This document shows, piece by piece, positions 25,566 through 42,453 of a stretch of DNA of 64,000 nucleotides. Below the pieces are notes generated by a model. It made no database searches. It saw nothing but the letters and a program-made list of their open reading frames with translations, and was not told where the DNA came from. This DNA comes from Chloroflexota bacterium (GTDB lineage: Bacteria > Chloroflexota > Anaerolineae > 4572-78 > J111). The translations under genes were made by a program, and so were the position numbers. Each line of letters starts with the position of its first letter. Within the stretch, counting starts at the first letter, position 1. The stretch is from contig BOKF01000040.1 in the NCBI GenBank assembly GCA_016860845.1, positions 12,076 to 76,075 of the forward strand, given 5' to 3'.

Positions 25566-26485
25566 AAGTCATTCCTTTCACGAGATAGAGCTATAAAAAA
25601 TATAAAACCGGCTCCCCAAATGTGGAGCGGTTCGTCAACTAAAGACCATGCGCCGTAGGCGGCAACCAGGGCAGTGGCCCAAACGGGTAATTGTGGCCAG
25701 CGCCGGGCGACGGCCCAGATCAGCCAGGCCAGCGCCGCCAGGCCGATCAAGCCCAGCTCGGCGGCAGTGGTGGCCACCAGGTTGTGAGCGTGAGGCCAGT
25801 TATTCAAGGTGAAATATTGGCCCGGTCCCAACCCGACGAGCGGCGCGGACCAGAAGCCCCGCCAGGCGTCGGCCCAGAAGTGGAGCCGCCAGGCGTAGCC
25901 GGCGGGATTGAGCCACCAGCCGGCCAGGATCAGGGGGGAGCAGAGGAGCAGAGGAGCGGGTGAGCGGGGGCGAACAAGAGCGACCAGGCCGGCCACGATA
26001 CCGCCGATGCTGGCCAGCCAAGCGCCGGCAATCACGGCTGCCGGCGCAATCAAAAGCGGCAGGCCGGTCAGCAGCGCCAGGCCCAGCAGGTTGAAGGCAA
26101 TGACGTTTTGATTTCCCCAATTGGGGAAAAATGAAAATAAGGCGTAGGGGATCAGCGCCCACAAAGCGGCGCGGTGGATGGTTTCATCTGGCCAGCGGTG
26201 AGCCAGGCGGTACAGCCCCAGGTAGCCCAGCCAGACCCCGATTTTGATTAGACTGTGCTGCCAGGTTTGATTGACCAGGGCGCTAACCAGCATGGCGGCG
26301 ATCAGGAGCAATAGTCCCTGCTCTATCCGATCAAATTCAAAATTTGAACACTGGTGCAGTAGCCAAACCATCAAGCCCAACCAGGCCAGCAGGTTGACCA
26401 GCGTTAGGGTCGGACTTTGCCAGCCGGCGTATCCGCCGGTGAGAGCCAGCCAGAGCAGGAGCAGAGCCAGGGTCAAGGTCTTCAT
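25562..26485 (-). CDS. O-antigen ligase (Wzy_C)-like polytopic protein
   Basis: 307 residues with about nine membrane segments and a long loop that contains WPHAHNLVATTAAELGLIG, the HxHN...E-x-G-x-x-G pattern of the WaaL/Wzy_C family, which joins lipid-linked glycans to lipid or protein acceptors. Shorter than usual WaaL (~400). It lies directly after the FtsK-like ATPase gene. As cargo of the element it may, with the GT39-like enzyme at 36 kb, decorate surface or particle proteins; that is inference. Confidence 0.7.
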   Translation of the reverse strand: MKTLTLALLLLWLALTGGYAGWQSPTLTLVNLLAWLGLMVWLLHQCSNFEFDRIEQGLLLLIAAMLVSALVNQTWQHSLIKIGVWLGYLGLYRLAHRWPDETIHRAALWALIPYALFSFFPNWGNQNVIAFNLLGLALLTGLPLLIAPAAVIAGAWLASIGGIVAGLVALVRPRSPAPLLLCSPLILAGWWLNPAGYAWRLHFWADAWRGFWSAPLVGLGPGQYFTLNNWPHAHNLVATTAAELGLIGLAALAWLIWAVARRWPQLPVWATALVAAYGAWSLVDEPLHIWGAGFIFFIALSRERNDL

Positions 26486-28497
26486 CAGTCACGCAGCCAG
26501 TCGGGTAAATCGTCGGCGTAGACCGGTTCGGGTTGTTTGCCGTTTGTCCGTTTGGCTCGTTTTGCCTTTGGCGCTTCCGGCTCGTTGGCCCTGATGACCT
26601 CAATCGCTAACGGCTCATCAGGCGTTTGCCACAATTCTTCAAACCACTCATTTTCTAATTCTGCTGATACAGCTTCATCGGTTTGCAGCTCATCTGGCTC
26701 ATCACTGCCTTGAGCTTTCAAGGTTTTTAAATTTTCAGGGTCTACCGAGTTGGCGGATTCCTCGGAACGCGGAACGCGGAACGCGCTCACATAGTCAGGG
26801 TGAGGATGTTTGCCGGCGACGTACTCATCAGCCAGGACCAGCCAGCGGGAGATTTTGCGGGGGATGTCAGCCGGAGCCAGGTAGTATGGCAAGCCGTTAA
26901 TTTCTATCTCAGGCTCAAGTCCAGGGTGCGTCCCTCTGACTTCATAATTTTCTAAAATGGCCATTACTTCAGCCCTGGCAAAACCTTGAGGTTTTAGGAA
27001 CTGGTGCAGCGTTTTGGTGTTGCACTCGCCCTTGAGATTGTCCAGAGCAAAGGTGAATAGAAACTCCGCCTTTTGCGCTCGCTCGGCGCTGCGGGAGTCG
27101 GTCTGTGCGCCGGCTTTGGCGTCGGCCACAACTTTCTTGACGGTCGTATCGGCGATCAGCGGGGCTTGCAGCTCGATCATTTCACCCCCCCACTTCCACA
27201 AAAAGCGTCCGGGGATGTTGGGCAGCTTGGCCGCCTCGTATTTCCCATCTCCTAACAAAATACCTGAAGCGGTGCCCGAGCCGCAGCGGAACGCGGCCCG
27301 GCTGTCCATGTTGTTGGCGATCTGCTGGGGCACAATAGCGCTGGATGGCGTTTGAGTGGCCAGCACAACGTAGATACCGACGGCGCGGCCTTTTCTGGCC
27401 AATTCGCTGAGCGAAAGGGTGGACTTGAGAGCGTATTTTCTGTTTTCCATCAGGCTGGCCAGCTCGTCAATGACCACGATCCAGTAAGACAAAGGCTCTG
27501 ATTTAAATCGCTTGTTGTAAGCAGATATTTTTTTAGCCTTACCTGCCATGAGCTTGGCGCGGCGGTCCATCTCGGCCTCAACGTAGCGCAAAATCGGCCC
27601 AACCTGGTAGGGTTCGGTGGCGATCTGCTGGCCCAGGGGCGGGCGCAGCTCCTCGCCGGGCTTGGGCCGGTAGTTGTCATCAACGGCTTTGATCTTGGGC
27701 GGGGCTTTGCTTTCGCTGGCGGCCTCGGCATCGGCCTCAGAAACATAGTTGACATCTCCCCCAAGATGAGGCAGGCCGGCATAGTCAATAAACTCAAGTC
27801 CTCCCTTGAGGTCCGTGAGAAACAATCTGAGTTTGGCCGGATCGTTGCGGCTGATGAGCGTGCAAAGCATGACGTTGATGAGGTTGGATTTACCACCGCC
27901 TTTGGTGCCGCCGACGAGCAAATTAATCATTTCGTCCATATCGCCGAAATAACTTTTTTGATTGGCGCCCATGCCCAGGGGAAAGCTGAGCGGGTCCGCA
28001 GCTTCGGCCATCTGCTTCATCATTTCGCCGTAACCGACTTGAGTCGGGATGGCTCCCCGCCCGTGCTTGGTCTCCACTGAGTACCAGTGACCGGCCGGGC
28101 TTTCATGAAACTCGACTTTTGAGCCACAGGCAGCGGTCAAGGTCTCCAAAGTGGCCTCATCGCGCAAGTGTTTGAGATACACCCCACGCGGCAGGCGCTT
28201 GGTGTCAATGTGGAAGAAGTAAGCGTCTTCGCCGATCTGGATTTTGTCGAGACGGACCGGCCAGACATCAGACTCCAGGAAGTCTTTTTCAGTCTTCTTT
28301 TTGCGGTAGCAAATATCCATGTTGGCCAGGTAAACCGGGATGCGCTTTTGCAGGTGGGTGGCTTCCTGCTTCAGCCGCTTTTGCAGCTCGCGTTGATATT
28401 TGGCTTCAGCGCGGGCGCGTTCCCGTTCTTCGCGCTCTTGCGGGGTCAGGTGGGTGTAAATGTTCAGGCCGGGGATGAAGGGCTTGAAAAAAAGCAT
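26485..28497 (-). CDS. FtsK/HerA-superfamily ATPase (DNA or assembly motor)
   Basis: 670 residues. An N-terminal charged helix rich in Glu/Arg/Ala lacks obvious membrane helices, followed by a motor domain with Walker A GGTKGGGKSN (~residue 195), FLTDLKGGLEF, Walker B YWIVVIDELASL (~340) and the FtsK block LATQTPSSAIVP...DSRAAFRCGS. The C-terminal ~200 residues include a winged-helix-like part and an acidic tail with a low-complexity insertion (26763-26785, GGAACGC units). Proteins of this class act as conjugative dsDNA pumps (TraB type), phage packaging motors or filamentous-phage assembly ATPases. The surrounding membrane operon fits either a conjugation or an extrusion role. Confidence 0.85.
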   Translation of the reverse strand: MLFFKPFIPGLNIYTHLTPQEREERERARAEAKYQRELQKRLKQEATHLQKRIPVYLANMDICYRKKKTEKDFLESDVWPVRLDKIQIGEDAYFFHIDTKRLPRGVYLKHLRDEATLETLTAACGSKVEFHESPAGHWYSVETKHGRGAIPTQVGYGEMMKQMAEAADPLSFPLGMGANQKSYFGDMDEMINLLVGGTKGGGKSNLINVMLCTLISRNDPAKLRLFLTDLKGGLEFIDYAGLPHLGGDVNYVSEADAEAASESKAPPKIKAVDDNYRPKPGEELRPPLGQQIATEPYQVGPILRYVEAEMDRRAKLMAGKAKKISAYNKRFKSEPLSYWIVVIDELASLMENRKYALKSTLSLSELARKGRAVGIYVVLATQTPSSAIVPQQIANNMDSRAAFRCGSGTASGILLGDGKYEAAKLPNIPGRFLWKWGGEMIELQAPLIADTTVKKVVADAKAGAQTDSRSAERAQKAEFLFTFALDNLKGECNTKTLHQFLKPQGFARAEVMAILENYEVRGTHPGLEPEIEINGLPYYLAPADIPRKISRWLVLADEYVAGKHPHPDYVSAFRVPRSEESANSVDPENLKTLKAQGSDEPDELQTDEAVSAELENEWFEELWQTPDEPLAIEVIRANEPEAPKAKRAKRTNGKQPEPVYADDLPDWLRD

Positions 28498-28502
28498 GGT
28501 TT

Positions 28503-28545
28503 AGCCCTCACCCTAACCCTCTCCCGGAGGGAGAGGGGATTCCTC
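28503..28545. repeat. CCCTCTCCC/GGGAGAGGGG palindromic repeat, copy 1
   Basis: Hairpin unit preceded by CCTCACCCTAACC. Similar units lie near 29567-29605, 40545-40595 and 47819-47858, each at or inside the 3' coding end or a Pro-rich linker. Confidence 0.6.
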
Positions 28546-29862
28546 GGTTGGGGTGGCGATGGGTGAAATGACGGTGGTCGCGGTCGCGGTGGGGGTCTCA
28601 GTGGGGGTACTGGTCGCGGTCGCGGTGGGCGTCTCTGTTGGCGTGCTGGTGGCGGTCGGCGGGATGGTGGTAGCGGTAGGTGTGGGGGTAGGCGTCACGG
28701 CAATCCATTGAATTTGTTGGGCGCGGATGGCCATGCCGCCACAGGCTTTATCCGCCAGGCCGATGACCAGGGCGGTGTGCTGGGTGGGATCGCCGGCGGG
28801 CATTTGTGCGCCTTCAAAAATGAGAAAATAAGGGACTCCAGCCCAGATAGCCAGGTTGCTTACAGAACAGCCGCCCACGGCCACTACAGGCCCGCTGAGC
28901 GTGATTTTAGCGGGGGTGGCGGTCGGCACGGGTGTTTTGGTCGGTTCCGGTAATTTGATCGAGCCGCCGCCGCTCGATGCCGCCGGCGCGGGTATCTCAA
29001 CCCGAGGCGGGGGAATGTAGGGCGTGGGGGTTGGGGGTTGGGGGTCGGGGGTCAGGGTGATAGTGGGCGTGACCAGGCCGGTGTAGTAGGGGCTGTTGGG
29101 ATCGTTGCGGGCGTCATACACGGGCGCTTTGTTTTTGTCGGGTGTGGGCAGGCCGTAGGCGGCCAATCCCTGGCCCCAGGTGGCCGTCGCCGTGCCGGTC
29201 AGGATGGGCTGATACTCTGGCAGCAGCGGCGCGGGCGTGGCCGTGCCGTTGAGCCAAAAGATTTCAGTGACCATCAAAATGGGGTAGTCACACTCTTTAG
29301 GGAATTTTTGAATATAACCCTTGAGCTGGACCATCTGCATGAACGGATCGCGGTCCAGCGGAGTTTGCAGGTAGAGGTAATACGGCGTGCCGTTCAGCCC
29401 GGCAGTGGTAAAGCCAAGATTGCTCATGGAGCAGCCCTGCTCATAGGTGATGACCCCAACGAGGTAGGGCGCGGCTTGCGGATCGCCGGCGGGCCGGTTC
29501 AAGGCGGCCTGCATTTGGGCGGTGGCTTGAAGTTGGGCCGGTTCCAGGGCGGGGGGCTGACCCCCTCCCTGGCCTTCCCCCTGAGAGGGGGAGGGGAGAG
29601 GAGTCGGGGTCAGGGGTTCGAGGGTGCGGACTACTGCCGGCTGTTCGGTTGGCTGCTCGGCGGCTTTGGCTTTGCCCAGCCTGCCGCCGCCCAGCACCCA
29701 GGTGATGCCGTAGCCGATGCAGAGCAGAAATAAGATGCCGATAACAACAATTTTGATGAGGTCTGATTTTTCCATAGTGTGCTTGTGTCCCCGCTGGCCG
29801 CGTTTGTCGCGGTTCAGCGTCATTGGCTCCTGGCCGGGTTCGAGAAATTCAATCTTGGCCAT
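28513..29862 (-). CDS. single-span membrane-anchored protein with two similar outer modules
   Basis: 449 residues. Short basic cytoplasmic head, one membrane helix (IVVIGILFLLCIGYGITWVLGG, ~residue 38), then two related outer modules: VGVITYEQGCSMSNLGF...PYYLYLQ and VVAVGGCSVSNLAIWAG...PYFLIFEG, each with a Cys in G-C-S-(M/V)-S-N-L. Modules are joined and followed by long Thr-Pro repeats; the extreme C-terminus is encoded by a CCCTCTCCC palindromic repeat. Not recognised; looks like a surface or pilus-associated factor of the assembly operon. Confidence 0.7.
   Translation of the reverse strand: MAKIEFLEPGQEPMTLNRDKRGQRGHKHTMEKSDLIKIVVIGILFLLCIGYGITWVLGGGRLGKAKAAEQPTEQPAVVRTLEPLTPTPLPSPSQGEGQGGGQPPALEPAQLQATAQMQAALNRPAGDPQAAPYLVGVITYEQGCSMSNLGFTTAGLNGTPYYLYLQTPLDRDPFMQMVQLKGYIQKFPKECDYPILMVTEIFWLNGTATPAPLLPEYQPILTGTATATWGQGLAAYGLPTPDKNKAPVYDARNDPNSPYYTGLVTPTITLTPDPQPPTPTPYIPPPRVEIPAPAASSGGGSIKLPEPTKTPVPTATPAKITLSGPVVAVGGCSVSNLAIWAGVPYFLIFEGAQMPAGDPTQHTALVIGLADKACGGMAIRAQQIQWIAVTPTPTPTATTIPPTATSTPTETPTATATSTPTETPTATATTVISPIATPTEESPLPPGEG
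29567..29605. repeat. CCCTCTCCC-type palindromic repeat, copy 2
   Basis: Lies in frame within the Pro-rich linker of the 449-residue membrane protein (encodes PLPSPSQGEGQGGG). Confidence 0.55.
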
Positions 29863-29864
29863 AA

Positions 29865-30311
29865 TTAAAACCTGAATTTCTTGCCGCGTTTGAGGGCGTA
29901 TTGGCCGGCCCGGATCGCTCGCCGCCAGTTGGCGTCGTCTACAAATTCATCGTTGAGATCGCCGGCCAGGCCCAGGCCGCCAGAAACATTCAGGGCCGGG
30001 TTTACGGGCCGGTCGGTCACAAAGCTGTACAACCACCACAGGGCCGACAGGCCCAGCATGATGACCACGAAAATTCCAAGCACCTGGTACTTGTCCAGCA
30101 AGCTAAAGACGGTCAAAGCGTAGCTACCCAGGGCATTGATAAATGTGGGAGTGGTGACAGAGGGTAAGGGCAGCTCCGGCGCGGCGTTTTCGTCGAAGTC
30201 AACCGGCTCAAAGTGGTAGGGCAGGGGAATGGGCGTTGGTTCTTGAGCCAGGGCGGGCGTGGTCAAGGCTAAGGCTAAGGCTAAGGCTGAGAGCAAGGCA
30301 AAGAGTTTCAT
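29865..30311 (-). CDS. signal-peptide plus single-span membrane protein (148 aa)
   Basis: Start at MKLFALLSALALALALTTPA, a signal peptide cut near ALA-QEP, followed by ~70 outer residues, one membrane segment (VLGIFVVIMLGLSALWWLYSF) and a basic tail KRGKKFRF. The hydrophobic core of the signal is encoded by (AAGGCT)4 units. Frame remains open further upstream, but that part is inside the preceding gene. Type I membrane topology; unknown role. Confidence 0.7.
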   Translation of the reverse strand: MKLFALLSALALALALTTPALAQEPTPIPLPYHFEPVDFDENAAPELPLPSVTTPTFINALGSYALTVFSLLDKYQVLGIFVVIMLGLSALWWLYSFVTDRPVNPALNVSGGLGLAGDLNDEFVDDANWRRAIRAGQYALKRGKKFRF

Positions 30312-30315
30312 AGGG

Positions 30316-31242
30316 TCACACGAAGGGCAGTAACTTGATGAGTTGGAGAATGAAGCCGATGACATCCAGGATAAAGTTAAACAGGCGGATGACCAGGCCC
30401 TTGAGAAATTCAAAGATTTTGAAGAAGAGGACCAGGGGCAGCATGATCAACAGCCAGGCGACGAACAGGCCGAAGGCTCCCAGGAAACGGAACAGGTCAA
30501 ACACGGCTTTGATGAGCTGCACGGGCAGACTAGCAATGTAGCCGGTGAACGAGGCCCAGGCGGTCAGGCTGTAGCGTTTGCCATCGTCTATGCCGCTTTG
30601 CATGGTCTCAAAGGTCCAGCCCACGTTGGCCATTGGGCGCGGCAGGCTGGGCGCGTACCACTCCGGGGCGGCCACAATGGTGAAAGTGTCGGTGTAGGTG
30701 ATGGCCTCGATTTCGCCGGACAGCCAATTAGTGTAAGAAATGGTGTCACTGATCCAGCCCTGGGTCGTGCCCACCATGCCGCTGATCTGCTCGGTGCTGG
30801 TGATGGTGCTGCTACTGGTCATGGTGGTGGTCAGCAGCGGCGCGGGGGTGATGCTGTAAGAGACCGGCGAAGGCAGGGCCAGCGGGGTGGGCGCGTAGCC
30901 GTTGGGGTTGGGCTGCGGCAGGGTCAGCAGCGGCAGTGAGGTTGGCTTTGGATACTGCGGCGCTTCAAAGGGCTTGGGATCGGGCATGGGCGCGTTGATC
31001 GTTGCCGTAGCCGTGCCAGGCATGGGCGTGGGTGTCGGGGTGGTGGTGGGCGTGCCAGGGCCGGGCGTGGGTGTCGGGGTGGGGCTGGGTGTCCGGGTGG
31101 GTGTGGGTGTGGGCGTGGTAAAAACGCAGGGATCGCCGGAGCAGCCGCTTTGAGCCAGGGCCGGGTAAGCCAGGCTAAGGCTGAGGCTGAGGCTGAGAAA
31201 CAGGGCGATTTTTAGCGAATGTTGATAGAGAAAAGCGCCCAT
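30316..31242 (-). CDS. secreted/membrane protein with Thr-Pro linker (308 aa)
   Basis: Starts inside the 3' end of the 775-residue gene (31-bp overlap). Signal peptide (IALFLSLSLSLSLAYPALA) with hexanucleotide repeat coding, a long Thr-Pro-rich region, a small outer domain, then two or three hydrophobic segments (FLGAFGLFVAWLLIMLPLVLFF; FNFILDVIGFILQLIKLL) near the C-terminus. No family recognised. Possibly a membrane-platform component of the same assembly apparatus. Confidence 0.7.
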   Translation of the reverse strand: MGAFLYQHSLKIALFLSLSLSLSLAYPALAQSGCSGDPCVFTTPTPTPTRTPSPTPTPTPGPGTPTTTPTPTPMPGTATATINAPMPDPKPFEAPQYPKPTSLPLLTLPQPNPNGYAPTPLALPSPVSYSITPAPLLTTTMTSSSTITSTEQISGMVGTTQGWISDTISYTNWLSGEIEAITYTDTFTIVAAPEWYAPSLPRPMANVGWTFETMQSGIDDGKRYSLTAWASFTGYIASLPVQLIKAVFDLFRFLGAFGLFVAWLLIMLPLVLFFKIFEFLKGLVIRLFNFILDVIGFILQLIKLLPFV

Positions 31243-33539
31243 ATATGCCGCCAGAAAATAGCTATTGTGGCCAGGATGATGCCCACAATGACGATTGGAT
31301 AAAGAACGGTGTGGCCAATCGTTTGATTGACCAACTGCGTGCCGGCCAGCAGGCCGCACCAGAAATTTGTATCGGCGCAACCCATCAGACCGGCAAAAGC
31401 GGATGTCTGCACACCGTCATTGAAAGCATAGTAGAAGGTGATCGGGATCGTGACCGTGACAAAAACATTGGCCCATATCCAGGATAGCAGCATCCAGAAC
31501 AAGTCCCAGATGGCTAACACCAGATCAACGAAAAGGCGCAGCGGGGAAATGTAGTGCAAAACGGCCTGAAAGAAGGGCAAAAGCCAGGCTAAAACGCCGT
31601 TGACCAGGCCAACCAGGAAGTTATAGAGCGAACCGATGAAGGCCAGGACGTTGAGGCCGCTTTGCCAGAGCCAGGCCATGATATTCCCCAGGGAAGCCCA
31701 CCACCAGGCCATAATGTGGCCCACAGTGGCTAGCGCCCAGGTCCACAGGGCTGAGATGAAAACGAGAAAATAGCGGCCCTGGCGCTCGATCCAGGAAGCC
31801 ACATTCAAAAAATTGTTAATGCCGTACTCGATGACCCGGATGACCCAGGCCAGGGCGGTGAGCAGGAAGCAAAGCAGCGCCTCTAACATGACCCAGAAGC
31901 CGGCCATGAGCCAGTTCCACCAGGAGCTAAACCAGCTATCGCCTGATGTGCCGGTCCCGCCATAAATCTGGTGATAGAGGTTCATATTGATGCCCCAGCT
32001 CGCCAAAATGCCGGCAGCGTCGGCGCAGCCAAAGTTGTAGTTAAACTCAATTGGGCCGATGGCTCCCGGATCGGGGTTGTTGGTGGGACCCGGCAGGCGC
32101 GGGCCTCGGTCGGCCAGGAAGATGCAGACGTTATCCAGGAAGATGTCGTCTTCAGCCGAAAATTCGGTCACGGGATCAACGCCGGCGTTAGCAAAAGCGA
32201 CGGCGGCCCCGGTCTCGCCGGCCAGCGTGGACAGGTCCAGCTCGAAGGTGTACATGTCGGGGTAGACTTCAAAATAGCCGGCGGAGCTGCTTGGGCCGTT
32301 GTCTACCGTGGTCGCAAGCAGGGCGCTTTGATCGTTGGCGGTTTCGGCCTCGAAGGAAAGTAAAATGTGCTGCTCGCCGGTGATGACCGGCATGGTGTAG
32401 AACGAGGTGGACATGAGCAGGCTTTTGGTAAATTCGTCGCCCTCGTTGAAGGGTAAAAAGGCGTTTTCGGCGGCCTCGTTCCAGCGGGCATCCCGGTACC
32501 AGTCCCAGCCGGCAGAGGTATCAAACGTGCCGTTGACCGGGGCAAGGCATGCCCCTTGCTGCTGGCCGTCTTCGCCGGTGTCCAGCGAAACACAGGCATA
32601 ATCCAGGGTCAGCGTGCCGTCGCCGTCGTTTTGCAGGCCGAAAATGATCGGGCCGCCCATCGTGGGCGTGTCCAGGGTGGCGGTGTATAAGCCAGGCTCT
32701 TGAATGTCCAGGGCCTCGTTTTGAGTGCCTAAAAAGACGCTGAGCGAAGCCGGCGCGGTCACGCCGGTGGCGGAAATGACGGCGTTATAGGTTTTGTTGC
32801 TTTCCAGGGTGGCCAGGTTTTGGGCGGCGATGTCACCCGAAGCCAGGGTCAGGGTGTCGTCGGTAATAACCGCCGTGCCGTCGAGCAGCCAGCCATCGGC
32901 GGCGCTGAAGCCGGCGTTTTGGACCAGGGGGCAAGATAGATAAACGCCGGGCTGGATGTTACACGAGGCCATGAAATAGGATTGATCCACCAGGAAGGTG
33001 AAACTTTCATCAAAGGCGGCCCCAAACGTTGTGGCGTCAAGGTAAATTGCAACCAGTTGGTCATTGTCGTTTTCGCTCGAAACACCAACAGTAATCCAGT
33101 CGGTGTTTATCGCTGTCCAAGTCCCGGTAATCATCTCCCCGTTTGCTAGCTCGAGCCTGCCCCGAAGGTGAGTACCATTGTTGAACGTGTGACGCTGGAT
33201 CAGTATATAAAGGGTATCTCCGGTATGAAGCACCCCGGAGTAAGGCGCTTTTAGAGTGGCTTTTAGGTTAGAACTATCGAGGTTGTTGCAGTTGAAGTGA
33301 TCGCAATTTAGGTTCCAGTCATCGCCAGATTGTGACCAAACCAGGCCGGGGTCTACATTCTCGACAATCTCAAAATTATCAACCAGGTAGCGCGGTTCAG
33401 CCTCTCCACACTCCTGAGCCAGAACCAGGGCAGGCACAGCCAGAGCTATATAAGCCAGCAAAAACGGAACTAAAAAGCGAAAAAACCGAGACGTAAACCC
33501 TCGTGCTATAAATTTGGAGCCAAGACAAATGCTTTTCAT
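31212..33539 (-). CDS. large secreted and polytopic protein (775 aa), unknown
   Basis: Signal segment (residues ~20-40, FLLAYIALAVPALVLA), then ~490 outer residues with two jelly-roll-like modules of carbohydrate-binding style (NAGFSAADGWLLDG and NGTFDTSAGWDWYRD motifs, many aromatic and Asp residues, paired Cys), then at least six membrane helices rich in Trp from ~residue 540 to the end. The topology, a big outer domain plus a polytopic base, recalls VirB6/TrbL-like or phage pIV-like platform proteins only in outline. It directly follows the coat-like genes. Confidence 0.7.
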   Translation of the reverse strand: MKSICLGSKFIARGFTSRFFRFLVPFLLAYIALAVPALVLAQECGEAEPRYLVDNFEIVENVDPGLVWSQSGDDWNLNCDHFNCNNLDSSNLKATLKAPYSGVLHTGDTLYILIQRHTFNNGTHLRGRLELANGEMITGTWTAINTDWITVGVSSENDNDQLVAIYLDATTFGAAFDESFTFLVDQSYFMASCNIQPGVYLSCPLVQNAGFSAADGWLLDGTAVITDDTLTLASGDIAAQNLATLESNKTYNAVISATGVTAPASLSVFLGTQNEALDIQEPGLYTATLDTPTMGGPIIFGLQNDGDGTLTLDYACVSLDTGEDGQQQGACLAPVNGTFDTSAGWDWYRDARWNEAAENAFLPFNEGDEFTKSLLMSTSFYTMPVITGEQHILLSFEAETANDQSALLATTVDNGPSSSAGYFEVYPDMYTFELDLSTLAGETGAAVAFANAGVDPVTEFSAEDDIFLDNVCIFLADRGPRLPGPTNNPDPGAIGPIEFNYNFGCADAAGILASWGINMNLYHQIYGGTGTSGDSWFSSWWNWLMAGFWVMLEALLCFLLTALAWVIRVIEYGINNFLNVASWIERQGRYFLVFISALWTWALATVGHIMAWWWASLGNIMAWLWQSGLNVLAFIGSLYNFLVGLVNGVLAWLLPFFQAVLHYISPLRLFVDLVLAIWDLFWMLLSWIWANVFVTVTIPITFYYAFNDGVQTSAFAGLMGCADTNFWCGLLAGTQLVNQTIGHTVLYPIVIVGIILATIAIFWRHIWALFSINIR

Positions 33540-33556
33540 AGTGCTATTTCAACGCT

Positions 33557-33581
33557 CCCGGCTGAGGTGGGTTCAGCCGGG
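33557..33581 (-). other. strong hairpin between coat-like genes and 775-aa gene
   Basis: Perfect 9-bp stem CCCGGCTGA/TCAGCCGGG, 7-base loop, 50 bases after the coat-like stop codon; no U-run follows on the minus strand. A processing or partial-termination element that would make the small genes more abundant than those downstream, like the terminator after gene VIII in filamentous phages. Confidence 0.5.
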
Positions 33582-33630
33582 GCTTGTTGTTTTCCTGCCT
33601 TCCTCAAGGCGATAAAACGGACGGGGCGGA

Positions 33631-33783
33631 TCAATTGAAGCCGCCAGAGAACAGGGACGCGATCTTCCGGGCCAGGTAGAAGCCGAAGGCGAGGCCGGCG
33701 GTCAGCGCGATGATGGGCATCAAGGCGTTGACGATCTGGCTGGCATAGCTGAAGATGGTGTCTACGTCAATCGAGAATGACAT
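33631..33783 (-). CDS. pVIII-like tiny membrane protein, copy 1 (50 aa)
   Basis: 50 residues: acidic amphipathic start (SFSIDVDTIFSYAS), one membrane helix (LMPIIALTAGLAFGFYLA) and a basic amphipathic end (RKIASLFSGGF). This is the plan and length of mature major coat protein of filamentous phages. Ribosome-binding site AAGGAG upstream. Practically identical to the next gene, differing only after GGF (N instead of GK). No signal peptide. Alternatives are a conjugative pilin-like or other oligomeric membrane peptide. Confidence 0.75.
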   Translation of the reverse strand: MSFSIDVDTIFSYASQIVNALMPIIALTAGLAFGFYLARKIASLFSGGFN

Positions 33784-33823
33784 GGTTCAGGGACTCCTTT
33801 CTAAAAGATGATGATGGGGCGGC

Positions 33824-33979
33824 TTATTTGCCGAAGCCGCCAGAGAACAGGGACGCGATTTTCCGGGCCAGGTAGAAACCAAAGGCGAGACCGGCAGTTA
33901 GCGCGATGATGGGCATCAAGGCGTTGACGATCTGGCTGGCGTAGCTAAAGATGGTGTCTACGTCAATCGAAAACGACAT
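33824..33979 (-). CDS. pVIII-like tiny membrane protein, copy 2 (51 aa)
   Basis: Tandem paralog of the preceding entry with an identical first 49 residues, ending GFGK. The DNA of the two copies differs at synonymous sites, so both are under selection for the same protein. Preceded by AAGGAGGT with ideal spacing, the best site in the operon, suggesting high expression. Confidence 0.78.
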   Translation of the reverse strand: MSFSIDVDTIFSYASQIVNALMPIIALTAGLAFGFYLARKIASLFSGGFGK

Positions 33980-34001
33980 GGCAGTACCTCCTTTCGTCGG
34001 G

Positions 34002-34181
34002 TTAGTCCTTGTCCCGGTCCCACCCTGGTTCCAACTTGATGCGTTCCGTTGGTTTCCAGAAGCGGGACAAGGGCATTAGCAGGGCCAGGAGAACCCCGGC
34101 CGCGATGAAAACAGGCAAGAGGATGTTTTGGATGAACGGCCCCAGGGTGATGAAAAAGGTTTGTTGCAGGTCAGTCCACAT
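34002..34181 (-). CDS. tiny membrane protein (59 aa)
   Basis: MWTDLQQTFFITLGPFIQ, one membrane helix (NILLPVFIAAGVLLALLMP) and a charged tail (RFWKPTERIKLEPGWDRDKD). ATG directly follows the TAG of the upstream 41-residue gene. Possible minor coat or assembly factor. Confidence 0.65.
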   Translation of the reverse strand: MWTDLQQTFFITLGPFIQNILLPVFIAAGVLLALLMPLSRFWKPTERIKLEPGWDRDKD

Positions 34182-34307
34182 CTATTTACCCGTAATATCG
34201 TCAATAAAGTTGTTTACGGCGGCGCTGGCCACCAGAGCAATAAAAACCACGGCCAACACAACGCTGGCAGTGGTCAGGAGTGACATGGTTTCAGCGGTTA
34301 CGTCCAT
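34182..34307 (-). CDS. tiny membrane protein (41 aa)
   Basis: MDVTAETMSLLTTASVV..., one membrane helix, ending NNFIDDITGK. Overlaps the upstream 53-residue gene by 17 bp and touches the downstream ATG. Too short for conventional annotation but its packing between two overlapping genes supports it. Confidence 0.6.
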   Translation of the reverse strand: MDVTAETMSLLTTASVVLAVVFIALVASAAVNNFIDDITGK

Positions 34308-34452
34308 AGCTCACCTTGACAATGAAGCTGAGAACCAGCACGACCAGCAGCGACAGCAGCAGCGCGGCCATGATGGTCTCGCCAAAATCGGCGCTGGTGG
34401 CCACGGTCAGGGTTTGGCCGGCCAGGGTGGTGGTGTAAACATCGGTACTCAT
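34291..34452 (-). CDS. tiny membrane protein (53 aa), paralog of the collar-protein anchor
   Basis: Residues 5-16 (VYTTTLAGQTLT), DFGETIMAALLL, one helix and a basic tail SYGRNR. It aligns with the last ~48 residues of the collar protein encoded next door: VYT-TL--G-TLT, then FG--I-A-L-L and a basic end. Overlaps that gene by 4 bp (ATGA). Confidence 0.7.
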   Translation of the reverse strand: MSTDVYTTTLAGQTLTVATSADFGETIMAALLLSLLVVLVLSFIVKVSYGRNR

Positions 34453-35303
34453 CGTCTAAAAACCACTCCAAAGGCCATCTGCAAGGCCACAACCGCAACA
34501 GTGGCCAGGACCAGGCCGGCAATGATGATTTGCCCAAAGCTGACCTGCACGGGCTGGGTCAGGGTTTTGCCGCTGTCCAGGGTGTCGGTGTAAACGCTGA
34601 GGTTAGGCAGGTAAGTGGTGCCGGTCATGGTTTGCGGGGTGGCGGTTGGCTGCGGCGTGATCGTGGGGGTCGGGGTCGGGCCGCCGACGCCGGTGTAGAT
34701 GATGAAATTCAGGGTCAGATAGGGTTGTAGGTTGTTGTGGGGCTGGCCGCCGCCGGTGTTTTGATTGGTTGCGGTGGCTGGGTTATTGGTGGCGGTCGTA
34801 TCGGCCGAGATAGAATTATCGTTCCCGGCAGCCACGCCAACCAGGGTTCGCCTGGCAGTGCCAGCGGCTGATGTTAGCGTGCCGTAAACGGTGTGGTTGT
34901 GCGGGTTCTGAGAGTGGTTATGGGCGTTCTGGATGTGACTATGTGACGGCATCTCGTTGATGGTCAGGGTGTGGGAGATTTCGCCGCCGGTCTCGCCGTA
35001 GCCATCAAATTCCGATTTTGAGGCGTCCCAGCCGACCGGGACGCGGCCTCGAAAGTCGGGAATTTTGAATTGATTTTCCTCGCCGGTGTAGCCGCCATAA
35101 ATCCAGTAAATTGTTTGAAATAAATATGGGTACTCATCTGTATACAGCGTTGAGCCGTCACAAATGAGCCAGCCGGGAGGCGGGTTATCGGTAGGCCATA
35201 GGCGGATTTCACCTATAATCGGCTCATCGGCCAGCGCGGGTAGAACCAGGAGCAGGCAGAGCAGCAGGCCAAGAACCAGGCTGAGAAAAAGGCGTTTTTT
35301 CAT
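34449..35303 (-). CDS. tail-collar-domain adhesin with signal peptide and C-terminal anchor (pIII-like plan)
   Basis: 284 residues. Signal peptide MKKRLFLSLVLGLLLCLLLV cut near ALA-DEP, then a phage tail-collar/MdpB-type domain: GEIRLWPTDNPPPGWLICDG, FKIPDFRGRVPVGWD, GGEISHTLTINEMPSHSH, and a His/Asn-rich NHSQNPHNHT. A Thr-Pro linker leads to a membrane helix (IIIAGLVLATVAVVALQMAF) and VVFRR. Collar domains normally sit in tailed-phage fibres; here the secretion signal and membrane anchor match a filamentous-phage pIII-like or surface adhesin. The anchor is shared with the 53-residue protein. Confidence 0.82.
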   Translation of the reverse strand: MKKRLFLSLVLGLLLCLLLVLPALADEPIIGEIRLWPTDNPPPGWLICDGSTLYTDEYPYLFQTIYWIYGGYTGEENQFKIPDFRGRVPVGWDASKSEFDGYGETGGEISHTLTINEMPSHSHIQNAHNHSQNPHNHTVYGTLTSAAGTARRTLVGVAAGNDNSISADTTATNNPATATNQNTGGGQPHNNLQPYLTLNFIIYTGVGGPTPTPTITPQPTATPQTMTGTTYLPNLSVYTDTLDSGKTLTQPVQVSFGQIIIAGLVLATVAVVALQMAFGVVFRR

Positions 35304-36727
35304 CGGGCGGCCTCCGCTACATTGCACGCGGCGCGGGTATCCACCAGCCAGAGGCGGGCGTCTACCAGGCCGGTTTGTTTGATGACGGCGTGCTGTTCGC
35401 CGTGATTGCGGGCCAAGAGGTCGTTGAGATAGGCACGCTCGGCGGGTGAGGTCGTCGGGTTTGAGGCGGTGATGATCCACCAGCGCGGGCGCTGGCATTT
35501 GACGGCCTCAAAGGTGGTTTGCTCCATGCCCATTGCCGCTTTGGTGGGTTCGGTCAGGGATTGGCTCAAATCGCCGGCCTGTTTCCAAACCACTTGGGGC
35601 ACGTCGGGCAGGTAATAGCGCATGGTGATGTAGCTGGACAGGTTGCCGTGATAAATGCCGTCGCCGGGTTCCAATTGGAAACTTTCGAGACCTTGAAGCG
35701 CCGATGAACGGCCCACCTGGTCGCTGAGCCAGTAAGCGCCCAACCAGGTGGCCACAGTGACCAGGGCCAGGGCCGCAATGAGGCGCGATCGCGCCAGGAC
35801 TGGAGCAACCAGGCTATACAGGACCGGTGCGAGCGGAGCCATGACCCGCACAATCAGGACCGGGGTAATCAGCACGGAGAGGATGCAGGCCAGGCCCAGG
35901 CAGACCACAACCAGGCCGGTTAGCTCCACCTGGCGCTTGATGTCCTGCCAGGCTAACAGCAGGAGCAGGCCGGAGAGCATGCCGGCATTGATGGCCAGGA
36001 ACGCGGCGGACTCGCTGAACAAGAGGGCGTTGAGGATGTACGCCGGCGTGCCAGGGTTGGGAGGTCTCACCCAAAAGCCGCTTTGCACGTCGCTGACCTG
36101 GTGCAGCAGGCCCCAGATGAGCCAGGGCAGCCAGATCATACCGATTAGGCCGAATGAGCCTAACATGCGCCACTCTAGCCGCCAGCGAAATATGCCTAAC
36201 CAGACCAGGGCAGCGACGTACAAAACCGCTAAATTGTGAAGGTAGAGAGAAAATGAGCCAGCCAGGACCAGGAGCCACCATTTACGCTCCAACAGGCCAA
36301 CCGTGGCCAGCGTGGTGGCCAGCATCAAGAGCGAGTAGGGCCGGGCCTCCTGGCTGTAGTAGATGGTGAACGGAGCCAGGGCCGTGACCAGGGCGGCGGT
36401 GTGTTGCGTGTTGCGTGTTGCGTGAAAATGACCGGATAAGCGCCACACGGCGGGGACCAGGGCAACGCCGGCCAGAGCAGAGACGAGGCGCAAGCTAAAT
36501 TCACCTGTACCAATACTGTGGGACACGGCCCACTCAATCAGGTACCAGGTGGGCGGGTGAACGTCGCCCAGGGTGGCGGCCCATAAATTGCCAATCGGCA
36601 AATTGGCGAGCCAGGCGGTGAAGGCTTCGTCATACCAGAGAGACTCCAGGCCCAGCGTGGGCAGCCGGAGCAGGGCAGCCAGGGCGGTGATGGCCAGCAG
36701 CGGACGCCGGCGCAACCAATCAAGCAT
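35300..36727 (-). CDS. GT39/ArnT-like polytopic glycosyltransferase
   Basis: 475 residues from the ATG overlapping the DUF4417 gene. First periplasmic loop ESLWYDEAFTAWL with the Asp-Glu pair typical of GT-C enzymes, and DVHPPTWYLIEW; about eleven membrane segments; a soluble C-terminal domain. GT39-like enzymes move sugars from polyprenyl-phosphate donors to proteins or lipids outside the membrane. A tandem CGCAACA-type repeat (36401-36424) encodes ATRNTQHT within a loop. Possibly modifies the element's outer proteins. Confidence 0.85.
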   Translation of the reverse strand: MLDWLRRRPLLAITALAALLRLPTLGLESLWYDEAFTAWLANLPIGNLWAATLGDVHPPTWYLIEWAVSHSIGTGEFSLRLVSALAGVALVPAVWRLSGHFHATRNTQHTAALVTALAPFTIYYSQEARPYSLLMLATTLATVGLLERKWWLLVLAGSFSLYLHNLAVLYVAALVWLGIFRWRLEWRMLGSFGLIGMIWLPWLIWGLLHQVSDVQSGFWVRPPNPGTPAYILNALLFSESAAFLAINAGMLSGLLLLLAWQDIKRQVELTGLVVVCLGLACILSVLITPVLIVRVMAPLAPVLYSLVAPVLARSRLIAALALVTVATWLGAYWLSDQVGRSSALQGLESFQLEPGDGIYHGNLSSYITMRYYLPDVPQVVWKQAGDLSQSLTEPTKAAMGMEQTTFEAVKCQRPRWWIITASNPTTSPAERAYLNDLLARNHGEQHAVIKQTGLVDARLWLVDTRAACNVAEAAR

Positions 36728-37394
36728 GGCCCTTGCGCTCCTCCCAATAGGTTGGAAACTCGATGACCTCAATGACGGACTCGAAGGGCATGCGCCCGTA
36801 GCACAAAATGAGCGTGGGTCCGATACGCTCAATCAGCTCTAAAAAGCCGCGTATAAAGTGGCCTTTTGATTGGCTGCTTCTCATCCCCACGGTGCTAATG
36901 GCGACGGTTGACCCCCACTTGATGCCGGCAAAGGCAAACTTGAAACTTTCCGGGCCGGCCCAGGAAACAGAGGGGATGACGGTAAGGCCCTGGCTCATCC
37001 AGTAAGCGCCTATCCAGCGGTTGCGGTAGGTGTTCCACTGCTGGGCGGCCAGCGGCCAGTGGTCCCAGATGGAAAAATCGGGGGTGAGGGCGGCGCTGAA
37101 ACGCTGGACGTAGGACAGGGCGCGGCTTGGCCGGGTCCAGGCCACTTCAAATTGGTAGTCGTCGAGGAAGAAATGGACGGCAGCGCGGCCTAAATTCTTC
37201 TCCGAGCGGGTGCGAATGTTGTAGGGGTGCAGCCGGCGCGGGCGGATCGTGCCAGCGTTGCCGATGACCGGCAGCCCCAGCGGGTTGTCGCTGGCGAAAA
37301 TTTGGCCGGTGTGCAGGGCGTCAAAGTTGCCCGGTAGTTTGGTCCAATCCTCTGCAGAGCGGACCAGGAAGGTGGGCATGGTCAGGGTGTCCAT
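36720..37394 (-). CDS. DUF4417 family protein
   Basis: 224 residues with the DUF4417 pattern: FLDDYQFEVAWTRPSRAL, LTPDFSIWDHWPLAAQQWN, YRNRWIGAYWMSQGLTVIP, AISTVGMRSS. The family is frequent on phages and plasmids; function unknown. Ribosome-binding site AAAGGAGA. Its stop overlaps the GT39 start by 8 bp. Confidence 0.85.
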   Translation of the reverse strand: MDTLTMPTFLVRSAEDWTKLPGNFDALHTGQIFASDNPLGLPVIGNAGTIRPRRLHPYNIRTRSEKNLGRAAVHFFLDDYQFEVAWTRPSRALSYVQRFSAALTPDFSIWDHWPLAAQQWNTYRNRWIGAYWMSQGLTVIPSVSWAGPESFKFAFAGIKWGSTVAISTVGMRSSQSKGHFIRGFLELIERIGPTLILCYGRMPFESVIEVIEFPTYWEERKGHA

Positions 37395-40328: not shown

Positions 40329-40499
40329 TTACCTGCTACCCCACAGAGGTATAGGATACTCCCACATTTGGAAGCCATCAAAAGGTTTGTCTCTTTGCCC
40401 TTGCTCTTTCCGTAAATTACGGGGGTGCCACTTGCCACACTTGCGGCAGTAAACCTCTAACTTGGGCAGCTCTCTTTTGAAGAAATTAAACAAGATCAT
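40329..40499 (-). CDS. small zinc-ribbon-like protein (56 aa)
   Basis: MILFNFFKRELPKLEVYCRKCGKWH..., one CxxC plus His, basic middle (RNLRKEQGQRDKP). Starts 14 bp inside the end of the preceding 89-residue gene. Confidence 0.5.
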   Translation of the reverse strand: MILFNFFKRELPKLEVYCRKCGKWHPRNLRKEQGQRDKPFDGFQMWEYPIPLWGSR

Positions 40500-40755
40500 A
40501 GGCGGCCCCTCGGCTTTCCACGGGGAAGAGCGCGGCCTGCTGCGGGTTGCCCTCTCTGCCCTCCCCCAACCCCTCCCAGGGGGCGGGGAGAGCTGACCAT
40601 TCTTTGATCCATTGGGAGAGGGTGACGGACCAGTATAGCTCCTGGTAGTCGTGATAGGTGGCCTGGATTTCGCCGGTGGGCAGGCACTGCCAGGTTGATG
40701 GGACGGCGATGTTTGCGCCGGCGGGAAAGACGATTGTAATAGGGTATTTGTTCAT
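40486..40755 (-). CDS. small protein (89 aa) behind repA-like gene
   Basis: MNKYPITIVFPAGANIAVPS..., ending ESRGAAYDLV; a CCCTCTCCC-type palindrome encodes part of its C-terminus (PWEGLGEGREGNP). ATG directly follows a TAA (40756-40758) that would end the RepA-like protein if its frame shifted by one base in a C-run upstream. As sequenced the RepA frame runs over this gene in another frame; I consider this gene, not that extension, to be real. Confidence 0.6.
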   Translation of the reverse strand: MNKYPITIVFPAGANIAVPSTWQCLPTGEIQATYHDYQELYWSVTLSQWIKEWSALPAPWEGLGEGREGNPQQAALFPVESRGAAYDLV

Positions 40756-42211
40756 TTACGGTTCGCTTTTTATCACATGGCTCACATGGGCCATGTGATA
40801 GGGGGGGGGTCAAATTTTCGGGGGGGGTACTATCACATGGGCCATGTGTAGCCATGTCGTATGAGTCTATAAGACTCAAGTTTGCCATTTTTGGGCCATT
40901 TTCGGGCATTTTTGGGGTGTCGAGCCATGTGATCGAGCCATGTGATCCGTTCGAGCCATGTGATGCCATGTGATTTTCGGGGTCATCTGGGGGCTGATAC
41001 AAGGCCCATTTGTTGCCCTTGATCTTCACTCCGAGCGTGTCTATTACCTGCCAGTCGAGCTTGCGGCGGGCCTCCTGGAGCATGGTTTCATTGTAGCCGG
41101 CTTCGGCGGCGGCAGTGCGAAGGTCGAAATAACTCAGCGGGCCGTCGCTGAGCAAGTCGAGCAGCCAGCGGGCACAATCGCCGGTGAGAGTGTCGGGGAT
41201 AAAGGGCTTTTCGCTCACTTCATAGCTGAGCATGATCACGTCGGGATTGTGGGGGGCGGGGGTGTAGGACATGACCAGGGGCCGGGGATGCTTACAGAGG
41301 TTGGTTTTGACCATGTGCAGCCGGCGCGGGCCGTTGGGATCGAGGCCGGGGATGTAGAGGCCCAGAATGGAGCGAGCCATATAGGTCAGGTGGCTGGTGC
41401 CGCGTAGATCGTGCTGGCTGACCGGGCCGGCTCCGCTGTTCTGGCCATTGGCCGGCTTGCGGAGGTGGTGAACCAGGAGCAGCGCCAGGTTGAAGTGATT
41501 GGCCAGATTAGCCAGGAAGTTCAGCAGCTCGCGGGTGTCCTCGACGTTGTTTTCTCCCTTGCTGCTGATGGTGGAGAGGGAGTCTATGGTGAGCAGATCG
41601 GGCTTGAGGTCGTAGCACATATCAATCAGGTGGTCCTGGTTGCGCTTCAGGCCGAGGTCGAGCATTTCCCGGTCCGGGCGCTGGACAGGGTAGAAACAGT
41701 CGAGGCGCATGTCCCAGCCGGCCAGCCGGTCGTAGATGACCGGGAGGAAGCCTTCAGCGTCTACATAGATGATGTTGCCGCTTTGGATGTTTAACGGCAC
41801 GCCGTCCGGGGCGGGCAGGTCCATGATGTTGCGCCGGGCCAGGTCAAGGGCGACGTTAGTTTTACCGACGCCGGCATCGGCGGCCAGGACGGTGAGCAGG
41901 CCACGGGGCACCCAATTGGGCCAGTACCAGGTGACTTCGGGGAGGTTGGGGCCAAGATGGGCCAGGGTTTCATAGTGCTGTTTTTGTTGGGGGCGCAGCT
42001 CGGCGATGGTGTCAATGGTGGCGGCCAGGTCGGGGTACTCCGTTTTGACGGCGAGCAGGGCTTGAATGGCCTCATAGCGGTCGGGGAGTTTGGCGGCCAC
42101 CACTTGCCAGAGGTAGTCGTAAGGATCGGCAAGCTGGTTTAGCTCCAGCTCAGGCTGCCCCCCATTGAGCAGATCACAAATTGCCTGTTGCTGGCGGCGG
42201 TCAGTCAGCAT
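40496..42211 (-). CDS. RepA-like AAA ATPase (replicative helicase type), C-terminus frame-uncertain
   Basis: As sequenced 571 residues. Core: WVPRGLLTVLAADAGVGKTN (Walker A ~110-118), PDLLTIDSLSTISSKG (Walker B ~210), LLLVHHLRKP and an RGTSHLTYMARSILGL block, all typical of RepA/AAA_25 plasmid helicases related to the RecA fold. A small winged region follows. The last ~110 residues contain iteron-coded SHGSNGSHGS and then a basic stretch that is probably out of frame: G9 and G8 tracts (40801-40809, 40820-40827, plus strand) sit just before a stop-start junction in another frame. The N-terminal ~90 residues are not recognised. Confidence 0.82.
   Translation of the reverse strand: MLTDRRQQQAICDLLNGGQPELELNQLADPYDYLWQVVAAKLPDRYEAIQALLAVKTEYPDLAATIDTIAELRPQQKQHYETLAHLGPNLPEVTWYWPNWVPRGLLTVLAADAGVGKTNVALDLARRNIMDLPAPDGVPLNIQSGNIIYVDAEGFLPVIYDRLAGWDMRLDCFYPVQRPDREMLDLGLKRNQDHLIDMCYDLKPDLLTIDSLSTISSKGENNVEDTRELLNFLANLANHFNLALLLVHHLRKPANGQNSGAGPVSQHDLRGTSHLTYMARSILGLYIPGLDPNGPRRLHMVKTNLCKHPRPLVMSYTPAPHNPDVIMLSYEVSEKPFIPDTLTGDCARWLLDLLSDGPLSYFDLRTAAAEAGYNETMLQEARRKLDWQVIDTLGVKIKGNKWALYQPPDDPENHMASHGSNGSHGSITWLDTPKMPENGPKMANLSLIDSYDMATHGPCDSTPPENLTPPLSHGPCEPCDKKRTVNEQIPYYNRLSRRRKHRRPINLAVPAHRRNPGHLSRLPGAILVRHPLPMDQRMVSSPRPLGGVGGGQRGQPAAGRALPRGKPRGRL
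40771..40976. repeat. iteron-like CACATGG repeats, candidate replication origin
   Basis: About nine copies of CACATGG/CCATGTG in both orientations within 206 bp inside the 3' end of the repA-like gene: four direct CCATGTGAT copies at 40925-40974 and palindromic pairs at 40771-40800 and 40833-40849. Between them are two long G-runs and an AT-richer patch. Repeats of this kind beside a rep gene are typical plasmid origins. Confidence 0.6.
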
Positions 42212-42453
42212 CGTTCTGTCTCCTTTGACGTGTGTTCTCGCTTGAGCTGCTGCAAGCGGTCAATGGCTTTGAGGCAGCGCCGATAGCGGACCAGGGCATG
42301 GCGGTCCACGTCGGCACCGGGGTGGAGTTCGATCATTTTGGCCATGAGGCGGTCCGGTTCGGATTTCTCCCGCAGGAGCGTGATGGCCAGGTCCAGGGCC
42401 TCGGCCGGGGTCATTTCGCCGTTGAGGGTGTAGGTTAGGGCGGGGTCAGTCAT
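42205..42453 (-). CDS. small helical protein (82 aa)
   Basis: Residues such as MTPAEALDLAITLLREKSEPDRL and a basic KAIDRLQQLKREH tail. Start taken at the ATG overlapping the preceding stop; another ATG 12 bases earlier is in frame. Overlaps the RepA-like start by 7 bp. Not recognised. Confidence 0.55.
   Translation of the reverse strand: MTDPALTYTLNGEMTPAEALDLAITLLREKSEPDRLMAKMIELHPGADVDRHALVRYRRCLKAIDRLQQLKREHTSKETERC

Follow-up and report, generated by a model that had tools for sequence, protein, structure and literature searches.

A mobile element of 27.2 kb, inserted at a tRNA-Val gene and flanked by 29-nt att cores, was recognised in a 64,000-nucleotide stretch of a Chloroflexota bacterium (NCBI GenBank assembly GCA_016860845.1, contig BOKF01000040.1, positions 12,076 to 76,075), referred to here as the window, in which all coordinates are given. 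A block of this element (26485-35303) encodes an FtsK-type motor, small coat-like membrane peptides and secreted, membrane-anchored proteins, and may build an extruded virus-like particle that carries the element DNA, with a filament as the preferred shape, an interpretation to which we give a little less than an even chance. The filament is put forward as a hypothesis, with no claim of inovirus identity, and a particle, a filament and a conjugation apparatus would be indistinguishable from the sequence. The genes, the family of related elements, the homology of the adhesin tails, their differing heads, the att sites, the relatives that read as circular and the FtsK-type motor were all computed here. 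The genes named in a preliminary description of this DNA, which had proposed a filamentous or pilus-like particle with a collar-domain tip, were all confirmed on the minus strand, and the observation as such is confirmed. The genes on which the argument turns are the following.

33631-33783, minus strand: 50-aa coat-like peptide, copy 2 (AGGAG-type ribosome site by eye)
33824-33979, minus strand: 51-aa coat-like peptide, copy 1 (AGGAGG ribosome site)
34002-34181, minus strand: 59-aa single-span peptide (no AGGAG-type ribosome site by eye)
34182-34307, minus strand: 41-aa single-span peptide (no AGGAG-type ribosome site by eye)
34291-34452, minus strand: 53-aa single-span peptide, paralogue of the collar protein tail (no AGGAG-type ribosome site by eye)
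34449-35303, minus strand: collar adhesin, made of a signal peptide, Collar/Gp10_C, a Thr/Pro linker and a coat-like tail
31212-33539, minus strand: secreted 775-aa protein with a variable N-terminus, beta-sandwich ectodomains and a helical membrane-embedded C-terminus (from its hits, a model and Foldseek)
26485-28497, minus strand: FtsK-type translocase with no predicted span and a helix-rich C-terminal region

The 50- and 51-residue peptides are identical at residues 1-49, and their codons differ there by 10 synonymous and 0 nonsynonymous changes, as the preliminary description had indicated; at the DNA level the two genes form a 149-nt direct repeat with 93% identity. The three further tiny single-span proteins of that description correspond to the peptides of 59, 41 and 53 aa at 34002-34452. 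Together, the five mini-open reading frames (ORFs) within 822 nt (33631-34452) constitute the largest same-strand cluster of the window when ATG mini-ORFs of 35-90 aa with exactly one span (spans being called by a simple hydropathy window), overlaps of 20 nt or less and a distance within 850 nt are considered. Among 40 first-order Markov resamples of the window, 37 gave 1 and three gave 2, the maximum, and the five-peptide cluster exceeds chance. Ten relatives of the 50-mer, with 73-92% identity, were found, and 28 of the 50 positions were invariant across the 12 aligned sequences, both window copies included, which by this alignment makes the 50-mer a strongly conserved peptide. Its coat-like, single-span plan was as first described, and the acidic head was reduced to D6 and D8 only. 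In phage and plasmid records the 50-mer found nothing better than an E of 3 or more. A role of the 50-mers as holins or as small toxins of the membrane appears very improbable: their best PHROG match is a holin family, at a nonsignificant E=0.09 (E=0.07 for the homolog in the related element L084, see below), but no match was significant, the tandem copies are kept identical in protein, and they adjoin adhesin tails of similar build.

A strong GC-rich hairpin of 11 pairs (33556-33582) was observed between the 50-mer gene, which it follows immediately, and the 775-aa gene; the 91-nt stretch holding it had a z of -3.2, with 2 of 200 shuffles equally stable, and the hairpin could stabilise or attenuate the coat message. 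At the corresponding places, the related element L087 has an 8-bp GC stem directly after its coat-like gene, in a stretch that was not significant (z -1.0), and L084 a weak hairpin only (z 0.5).

The collar gene has a GGAGG ribosome site by eye and an ATG at 35303, and its 284-aa product carries a hydrophobic signal at residues 5-23, the Pfam domains Collar (E=1.7e-16) and Gp10_C (E=7e-11; the longer reading from 35498 was scanned) and a C-terminal span at residues 259-277, in agreement with the secreted, C-terminally anchored collar protein reported initially. The last 48 residues of this protein matched the 53-mer with 40% identity in BLASTP (E=5e-8, a single comparison), and 0 of 500 shuffles scored as high. 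These data indicate, at the level of the alignment, that the anchor of the collar protein is a paralogue of the neighbouring free 53-mer, i.e. that the adhesin is built on a small coat-like subunit. Phage tail collar proteins share Collar and Gp10_C, to which a signal peptide and a coat-like membrane tail are added here.

The same arrangement with another head was found in L191 and L192, a sister pair of related elements from genomes G230 and G275 that are both read as circular from 77-nt overlaps. Positions 1760-2136 of L191 match the reverse complement of L192 at 14260-14637 (87.6%), and positions 2196-4285 match 15729-17818 (88.0%). Between these matching flanks there are 59 bases in L191 and 1,091 in L192, and the stretch of about 1.09 kb in L192 replaces codons ~3-22 of the free 65-mer of L191. 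Read in the frame of the 65-mer tail, this stretch codes for a linker preceded by a signal peptide and BNR-like repeats, and its head matched Sortilin-Vps10 (E=5e-7) and BNR (E about 1e-4), all below the cut-off. As judged from these sequences, the L191/L192 fusion repeats the collar/53-mer pattern of the window with another head. Across the elements the adhesin heads vary, a phage collar, a CBM5/12 and a BNR-like head having been found, and neither this family nor the regularity of different heads on coat-like tails was part of the preliminary description.

The MltG of the host matched 328 of 400 genomes of the phylum, best G216 and G284 (50% identity), and for this reason the class of G216 was chosen for the FtsK search. 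With the FtsK profile A3, three of 396 genomes of that class matched at E<=1e-45 (G423, G112 and G618), and no relative appeared in nine genomes of the order of G216 at E<=1e-50. With profile A5, 294 of 390 phylum genomes passed E<=1e-55 and five stood apart at E<=1e-99 (G112, G254, G317, G230 and G275), the next match being at 4.7e-67; the remaining matches were regarded as ordinary FtsK, with the possible exception of element-like FtsK pieces on two short G019 contigs. Seven related genomes were counted, leaving aside these G019 contigs and two IMG/VR contigs, L112 and L088; L088 (14.3 of 16.2 kb covered) was the one clear relative among those examined in pattern scans of viral contigs. Because few candidates per genome were scored (three in both FtsK profile searches), elements may have been missed.

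The layout, in which small span peptides are combined with a pair of large secreted anchored proteins and FtsK, was present in six of the seven related Chloroflexota elements, three of which (17-18 kb) are read as circular. L084, in G112, is integrated at tRNA-His with a 39-nt repeat 20.6 kb apart and further partial copies. It encodes small spans, a 228-aa secreted Thr/Pro-linker protein, a 52-aa coat homolog in one copy (phmmer E=7e-8, z 14.9), secreted proteins of 966 and 437 aa and a 199-aa span protein, with FtsK and a glycosyltransferase on the opposite strand. L087, in G618, is read as circular from a 141-nt terminal overlap and encodes FtsK, an adhesin with a signal peptide, CBM5/12 (E=1.8e-8), a linker and a hydrophobic tail, a 95-aa peptide with a predicted leader, and secreted proteins of 752 and 485 aa. 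The 95-aa peptide is a tentative coat homolog (z 6.8 after the leader, and z 6.1 when 1192 small ORFs were scanned); what supports it is its place ahead of the two large secreted proteins, and not the score alone. L191 and L192 share small spans, the free or fused 65-mer, an NlpC/P60 protein (by Pfam in L191 and as a phmmer homolog in L192), a 690-aa protein, which in L192 is cut by the contig end, and FtsK. L188 (G254) and L189 (G317) follow the gene order of L191/L192, with no fused adhesin seen, and L189 has a 24-nt repeat at tRNA-Pro. L086, in G423, has homologs of FtsK, the glycosyltransferase, the oligosaccharyltransferase-like protein, ParM, StbB and YdjM.

Some relatives of the 50-mer, the 775-aa protein and FtsK come from sources named as Anaerolineales metagenome-assembled genomes. 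The sources of P0003 (coat), P0013 (775-aa) and P0025 (FtsK) have the same contig count of 3 and longest contig of 30,546 b, and those of P0010 (coat, 73%) and P0078 (FtsK, 35%) the same count of 5 and longest contig of 22,086 b; the members of each group presumably lie on one contig.

The 775-aa protein gave 12 matches, one of which was the protein of the window itself, and the other 11, 38-68% identical, were aligned. Its model (pLDDT 64, pTM 0.28) has beta-sandwich ectodomains and a helical C-terminus, and in Foldseek the top rows were large multi-domain glycosidases and insecticidal Cry and Vip3 proteins, with low TM-scores, and a CBM22 tandem stood in lower rows; the modelled ectodomains are best described simply as CBM-like beta-sandwiches. 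No relative was found with the alignment in viral contigs, genome contigs, eight genomes, 400 Chloroflexota genomes or G423, G112 and G618, nor with the protein in phage and plasmid records. In the C-terminal third of the family alignment (A2) a Trp-rich, amphipathic-looking region varies strongly in length between relatives. A homology of the C-terminus to the large proteins of L084, L087, L188, L189 or L191 was considered and rejected (z 1.6 or less).

Two less probable explanations can be set against these data. The small peptides might form the membrane matrix, and the collar and 775-aa proteins the spikes, of a lipid-containing pleomorphic or spindle-like virion, for which pleolipoviruses or fuselloviruses provide the comparison; we hold this to be improbable. 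All the structural candidates are indeed membrane proteins, the would-be spikes have C-terminal membrane parts and relatives are read as circular, but the candidates had no PHROGs match, the 775-aa protein and the 50-mer found no match among phage records, and each small subunit has a single predicted span. Still less probable, in our estimation, is that the block is cargo, encoding an adhesion fibre or surface appendage with no role in DNA transfer, a reading that would suit the adhesin heads and the glycosyltransferase genes; against it, the block recurs together with FtsK in six of the seven small mobile elements, although these were found through FtsK.

The motor is closest to FtsK and to the conjugation protein TcpA, which together with FtsK is its closest solved relative and belongs to the Tcp system of pCW3. 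By family, an FtsK-type protein is a double-stranded DNA (dsDNA) motor. In Pfam the translocase matched FtsK_SpoIIIE, with no Zot match and no span by hydropathy, and its helix-rich C-terminal region looks winged-helix-like in the model. In PHROGs, FtsK families (E=9e-63) came well before terminase (E=1.5e-6), and a match to NCBIfam TraB was weak (E=2e-4, far below the cut-off). The protein gave 925 matches, the first of the 120 listed being that of the window itself, and partial matches of less than 60% identity in phage (144) and plasmid (162) records. In viral contigs the single sequence found no relative, as was also the case for the coat and 50-mer searches there, and alignment A3 gave four partial matches; in genome contigs A3 gave 72 loci with 25-34% identity, taken as ordinary chromosomal FtsK without individual checks. 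No Zot or pI structures appeared in a VIA search that covered mainly residues 146-465 and excludes nothing.

This motor also suits an FtsK-driven dsDNA conjugation of the type of Streptomyces TraB and the actinomycete integrative and conjugative elements (AICEs), in which it would move circular dsDNA into a neighbouring cell, the peptides, adhesins and peptidoglycan hydrolases being the contact apparatus; we regard this as a real possibility, well short of an even chance. The nearness to FtsK and TcpA, the weak TraB match, the integration at tRNA genes and the plasmid-type partition genes speak for it. According to the available text of PMC3218068, AICE transfer seems to need just an FtsK-type Tra, most AICEs have tyrosine integrases, and spread genes adjoin tra in pSLS. 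The element shares with the AICEs of that text an integrase at a tRNA gene and an FtsK/SpoIIIE-domain Tra, and small membrane proteins are common to both, the host here being a member of the Chloroflexota. The Pfam scan, which covered 30 window proteins and among them the element's gene-like minus-strand ORFs above 200 aa, gave no RepSA, RepAM or Prim-Pol match, although some AICEs have other or unknown replication modules (PMC3218068, same text). Neither Tandem Repeats Finder nor octamer counts gave a clt-like repeat array, with the proviso that clt sequences vary; the ATPase has no predicted span; and adhesin heads on coat-like tails are absent from the AICE scheme as far as that text describes it. 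A conjugative element of the type IV secretion kind is not suggested either, since neither a VirB4-type ATPase nor a relaxase was matched in Pfam by the 30 window proteins or the part of the ORFs scanned in L084, L087, L188, L189, L191 and L192, which also sets the element apart from the Tcp system of pCW3. When 20 window proteins were compared with PHROGs, the collar protein alone matched tail families, and apart from the terminase match of FtsK given above no terminase, portal or major capsid of a tailed phage was found.

The comparison with inoviruses (Tubulavirales; Ff, Pf3, phiOH3) gave a mixed picture. The short structural proteins of inoviruses, 30-90 aa with a single span, have their counterparts in the peptides of 41, 50, 51, 53 and 59 aa, and a secreted anchored protein after the coat gene and an ATPase of the broad FtsK-HerA superfamily are also shared. 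In phiOH3 the order is minor coats, major coat, adsorption protein, minor coat and Zot-domain protein (available part of PMC4763002), with which the window order of small peptides, coat, large secreted proteins and ATPase runs parallel. In this scheme it is the 775-aa protein that occupies the place of pIII, so that the early comparison of the collar protein with pIII stands as regards secretion and anchoring, but not as regards position or the anchor itself, which is coat-like. In contrast to inoviruses, the elements are of 15-27 kb and the adhesin head sits on a coat-like tail. The inovirus pI is defined, in the accessible portion of PMC6813254, by Zot as its closest domain, by the presence of one or two spans and by the lack of a significant similarity to any other ATPase; the protein found here has FtsK_SpoIIIE, no Zot, no span and a clear FtsK/TcpA similarity. 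Nor was a rolling-circle initiator found among the 30 window proteins, which include a RecA/DnaB-type helicase instead. The element is, as initially stated, unlike described inoviruses, with its 27.2 kb and an FtsK-type ATPase with neither a Zot match nor a span.

Several observations weigh against an extruded particle. No known coat family was matched by the 50-mer and its relatives in PHROGs or in a PDB profile search; this is weak evidence, because the proposed inovirus families have distinct major coats (PMC6813254, same portion). The proteins scanned gave no capsid, Zot or rolling-circle Rep match, and the ATPase is close to FtsK and TcpA, as described. Homologs of the 50-mer among the seven relatives were one clear (L084) and one tentative (L087), and the 50/51-mer tandem was seen in none of them: L084 has one copy, and L087 one tentative copy and a distant, weak 42-aa peptide. 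In the scan of 1192 ORFs, scores similar to that of the L087 homolog were reached by another L087 peptide (6.9), by one from L088 (5.9) and by an unlikely ORF (5.1); between the coat-like peptides of L084 and L087 there is hardly a match, 15 of 500 shuffles scoring as high, and profile A1 does not recover the L087 peptide in G618. No sequence homolog of the 775-aa protein was found in the relatives examined, which have only the layout in common with the window, no coat block was seen on the 19-kb contig of L086, and the linkage with FtsK is partly due to selection, since the relatives were found through FtsK. The interpretation first given is partly supported: the recurring layout, the paralogy of the tails and the sister fusion argue for it, and the missing coat-family match and the FtsK/TcpA-like ATPase against it.

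Two features, the conservation of the coat-like peptide and the phage-type head, lead us to prefer the particle to a contact-dependent transfer of dsDNA. From the gene content we infer a topology, an assembly route, DNA export and a particle shape as follows. An extracellular, membrane-assembled structure would carry the element DNA out of the cell, the 50/51-mers being its bulk subunit, placed in the membrane N-out, C-in before assembly, and the 41-, 53- and 59-mers its minor subunits. Mature pVIII and the leaderless Pf3 coat sit in the membrane in this orientation before assembly, and the charge pattern and the fusions, whose signal peptide puts the head outside, argue for it here. On its coat-like tail the collar protein would expose a head for receptor binding, and the 775-aa protein might be a second binding or end protein. 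As the structure grows, circular dsDNA would be pumped into it by the FtsK-type ATPase, for which a 449-aa protein is perhaps the tether. A wider proposal, which we consider rather unlikely at present, is an unrecognised Chloroflexota lineage of viruses or transfer particles, whose FtsK motor would export circular dsDNA of ~15-27 kb through or into a single-helix coat structure and which would be retargeted by head swapping onto coat-like tails; it would be a natural counterpart of phage display. If particles are made, receptor-binding domains would be exchanged on coat-like subunits in nature, in a virus-like lineage that inovirus criteria miss because its ATPase is FtsK-type and not Zot-type. 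If instead the element conjugates, FtsK-type dsDNA transfer would extend to the Chloroflexota and would there have a surface apparatus of its own. Under either reading, direct markers are available in the 50-mer, the collar tail and FtsK, and no description of this element family was found in the literature searched.

The limits of the element and its remaining genes are as follows.

23080-23108: att core copy 1, distal element end (direct repeat D6, 29 nt identical)
23115-24008, minus strand: tyrosine recombinase (integrase; PF00589 E=2.9e-33)
24516-24707, minus strand: 63-aa single-span peptide (phmmer E about 5e-4 to L188, L191 and L192; z=8.6 vs L191)
25562-26485, minus strand: multi-span protein, weakly like the O-linking oligosaccharyltransferase TfpM (NF058641 E=2e-4, 20 bits vs a cut-off of 600)
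28513-29862, minus strand: 449-aa protein with a short N-terminus, one span and a Thr/Pro-rich stalk
29865-30413, minus strand: 182-aa ORF with a hydrophobic signal from an internal start and one further span
30316-31380, minus strand: 354-aa ORF with a hydrophobic signal from an internal start, a Thr/Pro-rich region and C-terminal spans, ending in ...IKLLPFV
35300-36832, minus strand: multi-span glycosyltransferase-like protein, Agl23/PMT-like (TIGR03663 E=7e-13, below cut-off)
36720-37394, minus strand: DUF4417 protein (PF14386 E=3.4e-52; phrog_940 nuclease E=7e-72)
40496-42211, minus strand: RecA/DnaB-type helicase, AAA_25 (PF13481 E=3e-23; phrog_239 E=1.6e-18), probably the replication protein
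42446-43873, minus strand: topoisomerase-like protein (phrog_6247 E=1e-30)
45525-46856, minus strand: plasmid-type partition genes (ParM-like actin 45801-46856, StbB-like 45525-45800)
50293-50321: att core copy 2, overlapping the 3' end of tRNA-Val (50295-50370, minus strand)

The att cores lie within a direct repeat (23072-23108/50285-50321), and the integrase, with homologs in L188, L087, L190, L191, L084 and L192, sits at the element end opposite tRNA-Val. The partition genes matched PF17989 (E=2.6e-22), PF10784 (E=7.6e-5, below cut-off) and phrog_691 (E=5.5e-47). Homologs of the TfpM-like protein occur in L086 (5e-12) and L088 (8e-5), and those of the glycosyltransferase-like protein in L086 (E=1e-62), L084 (9e-43; this homolog matches PMT_2, E=3e-7) and L088 (5e-37). 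The adjacency of this conserved glycosyltransferase to the collar gene and the Thr/Pro-rich stalks suggest that the surface proteins of the element are glycosylated. The 449-aa protein is possibly the membrane partner of FtsK, and proteins of 199 aa (L084) and 310 aa (L088) are built like it by eye; its matches to Zot (phrog_197, E=0.003, over the span and Pro-rich part) and to the 684-aa protein of L188 (E=1.2e-4) were discarded as likely due to composition. For the C-terminal 110 aa of the 354-aa ORF, the shuffles out of 500 that reached the score were 0 for L189, 2 for L188, 5 for L087, 11 for L191 and 35 for L084. The helicase ORF holds short tandem repeats of 11 and 13 nt (40884-40947).

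Some minor observations were made in the related elements. An adhesin-like ORF of L084 (6964-7650) ends without a membrane span, and a hydrophobic tail lies just downstream in another frame; the secreted 437-aa protein (11071-12384) has no Pfam match and contains an HYHLHF stretch, which by eye we take to be M23-peptidase-like. In L087 the distant 42-aa single-span peptide (5597-5725) weakly resembles the 50-mer (z 5.8-6.9), a tape-measure reading of the 752-aa protein (E=0.0028) was rejected, and the palindromic octamer ACGGCCGT was counted 14 times over 17.3 kb, against 7.6 expected from its sub-words. Secreted NlpC/P60 proteins with C-terminal spans are encoded in L191 (2324-3631, E=8.6e-18) and L189 (17754-19106, E=1e-13), and that of L191 matches tail-protein PHROGs through this domain (E=5e-20). 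Finally, a 640-664-aa protein adjoining FtsK (L191:8061-10001; L188:6619-8541; L189:11148-13070; L192:13246-15240) is homologous at its N-terminus to a small two-span peptide (66 aa and free in L191, at 1515-1715; 61 aa in L192), with a shuffle z of 9-27, and the L191 version of the large protein carries a ddrB-ParB domain (E=6e-35).

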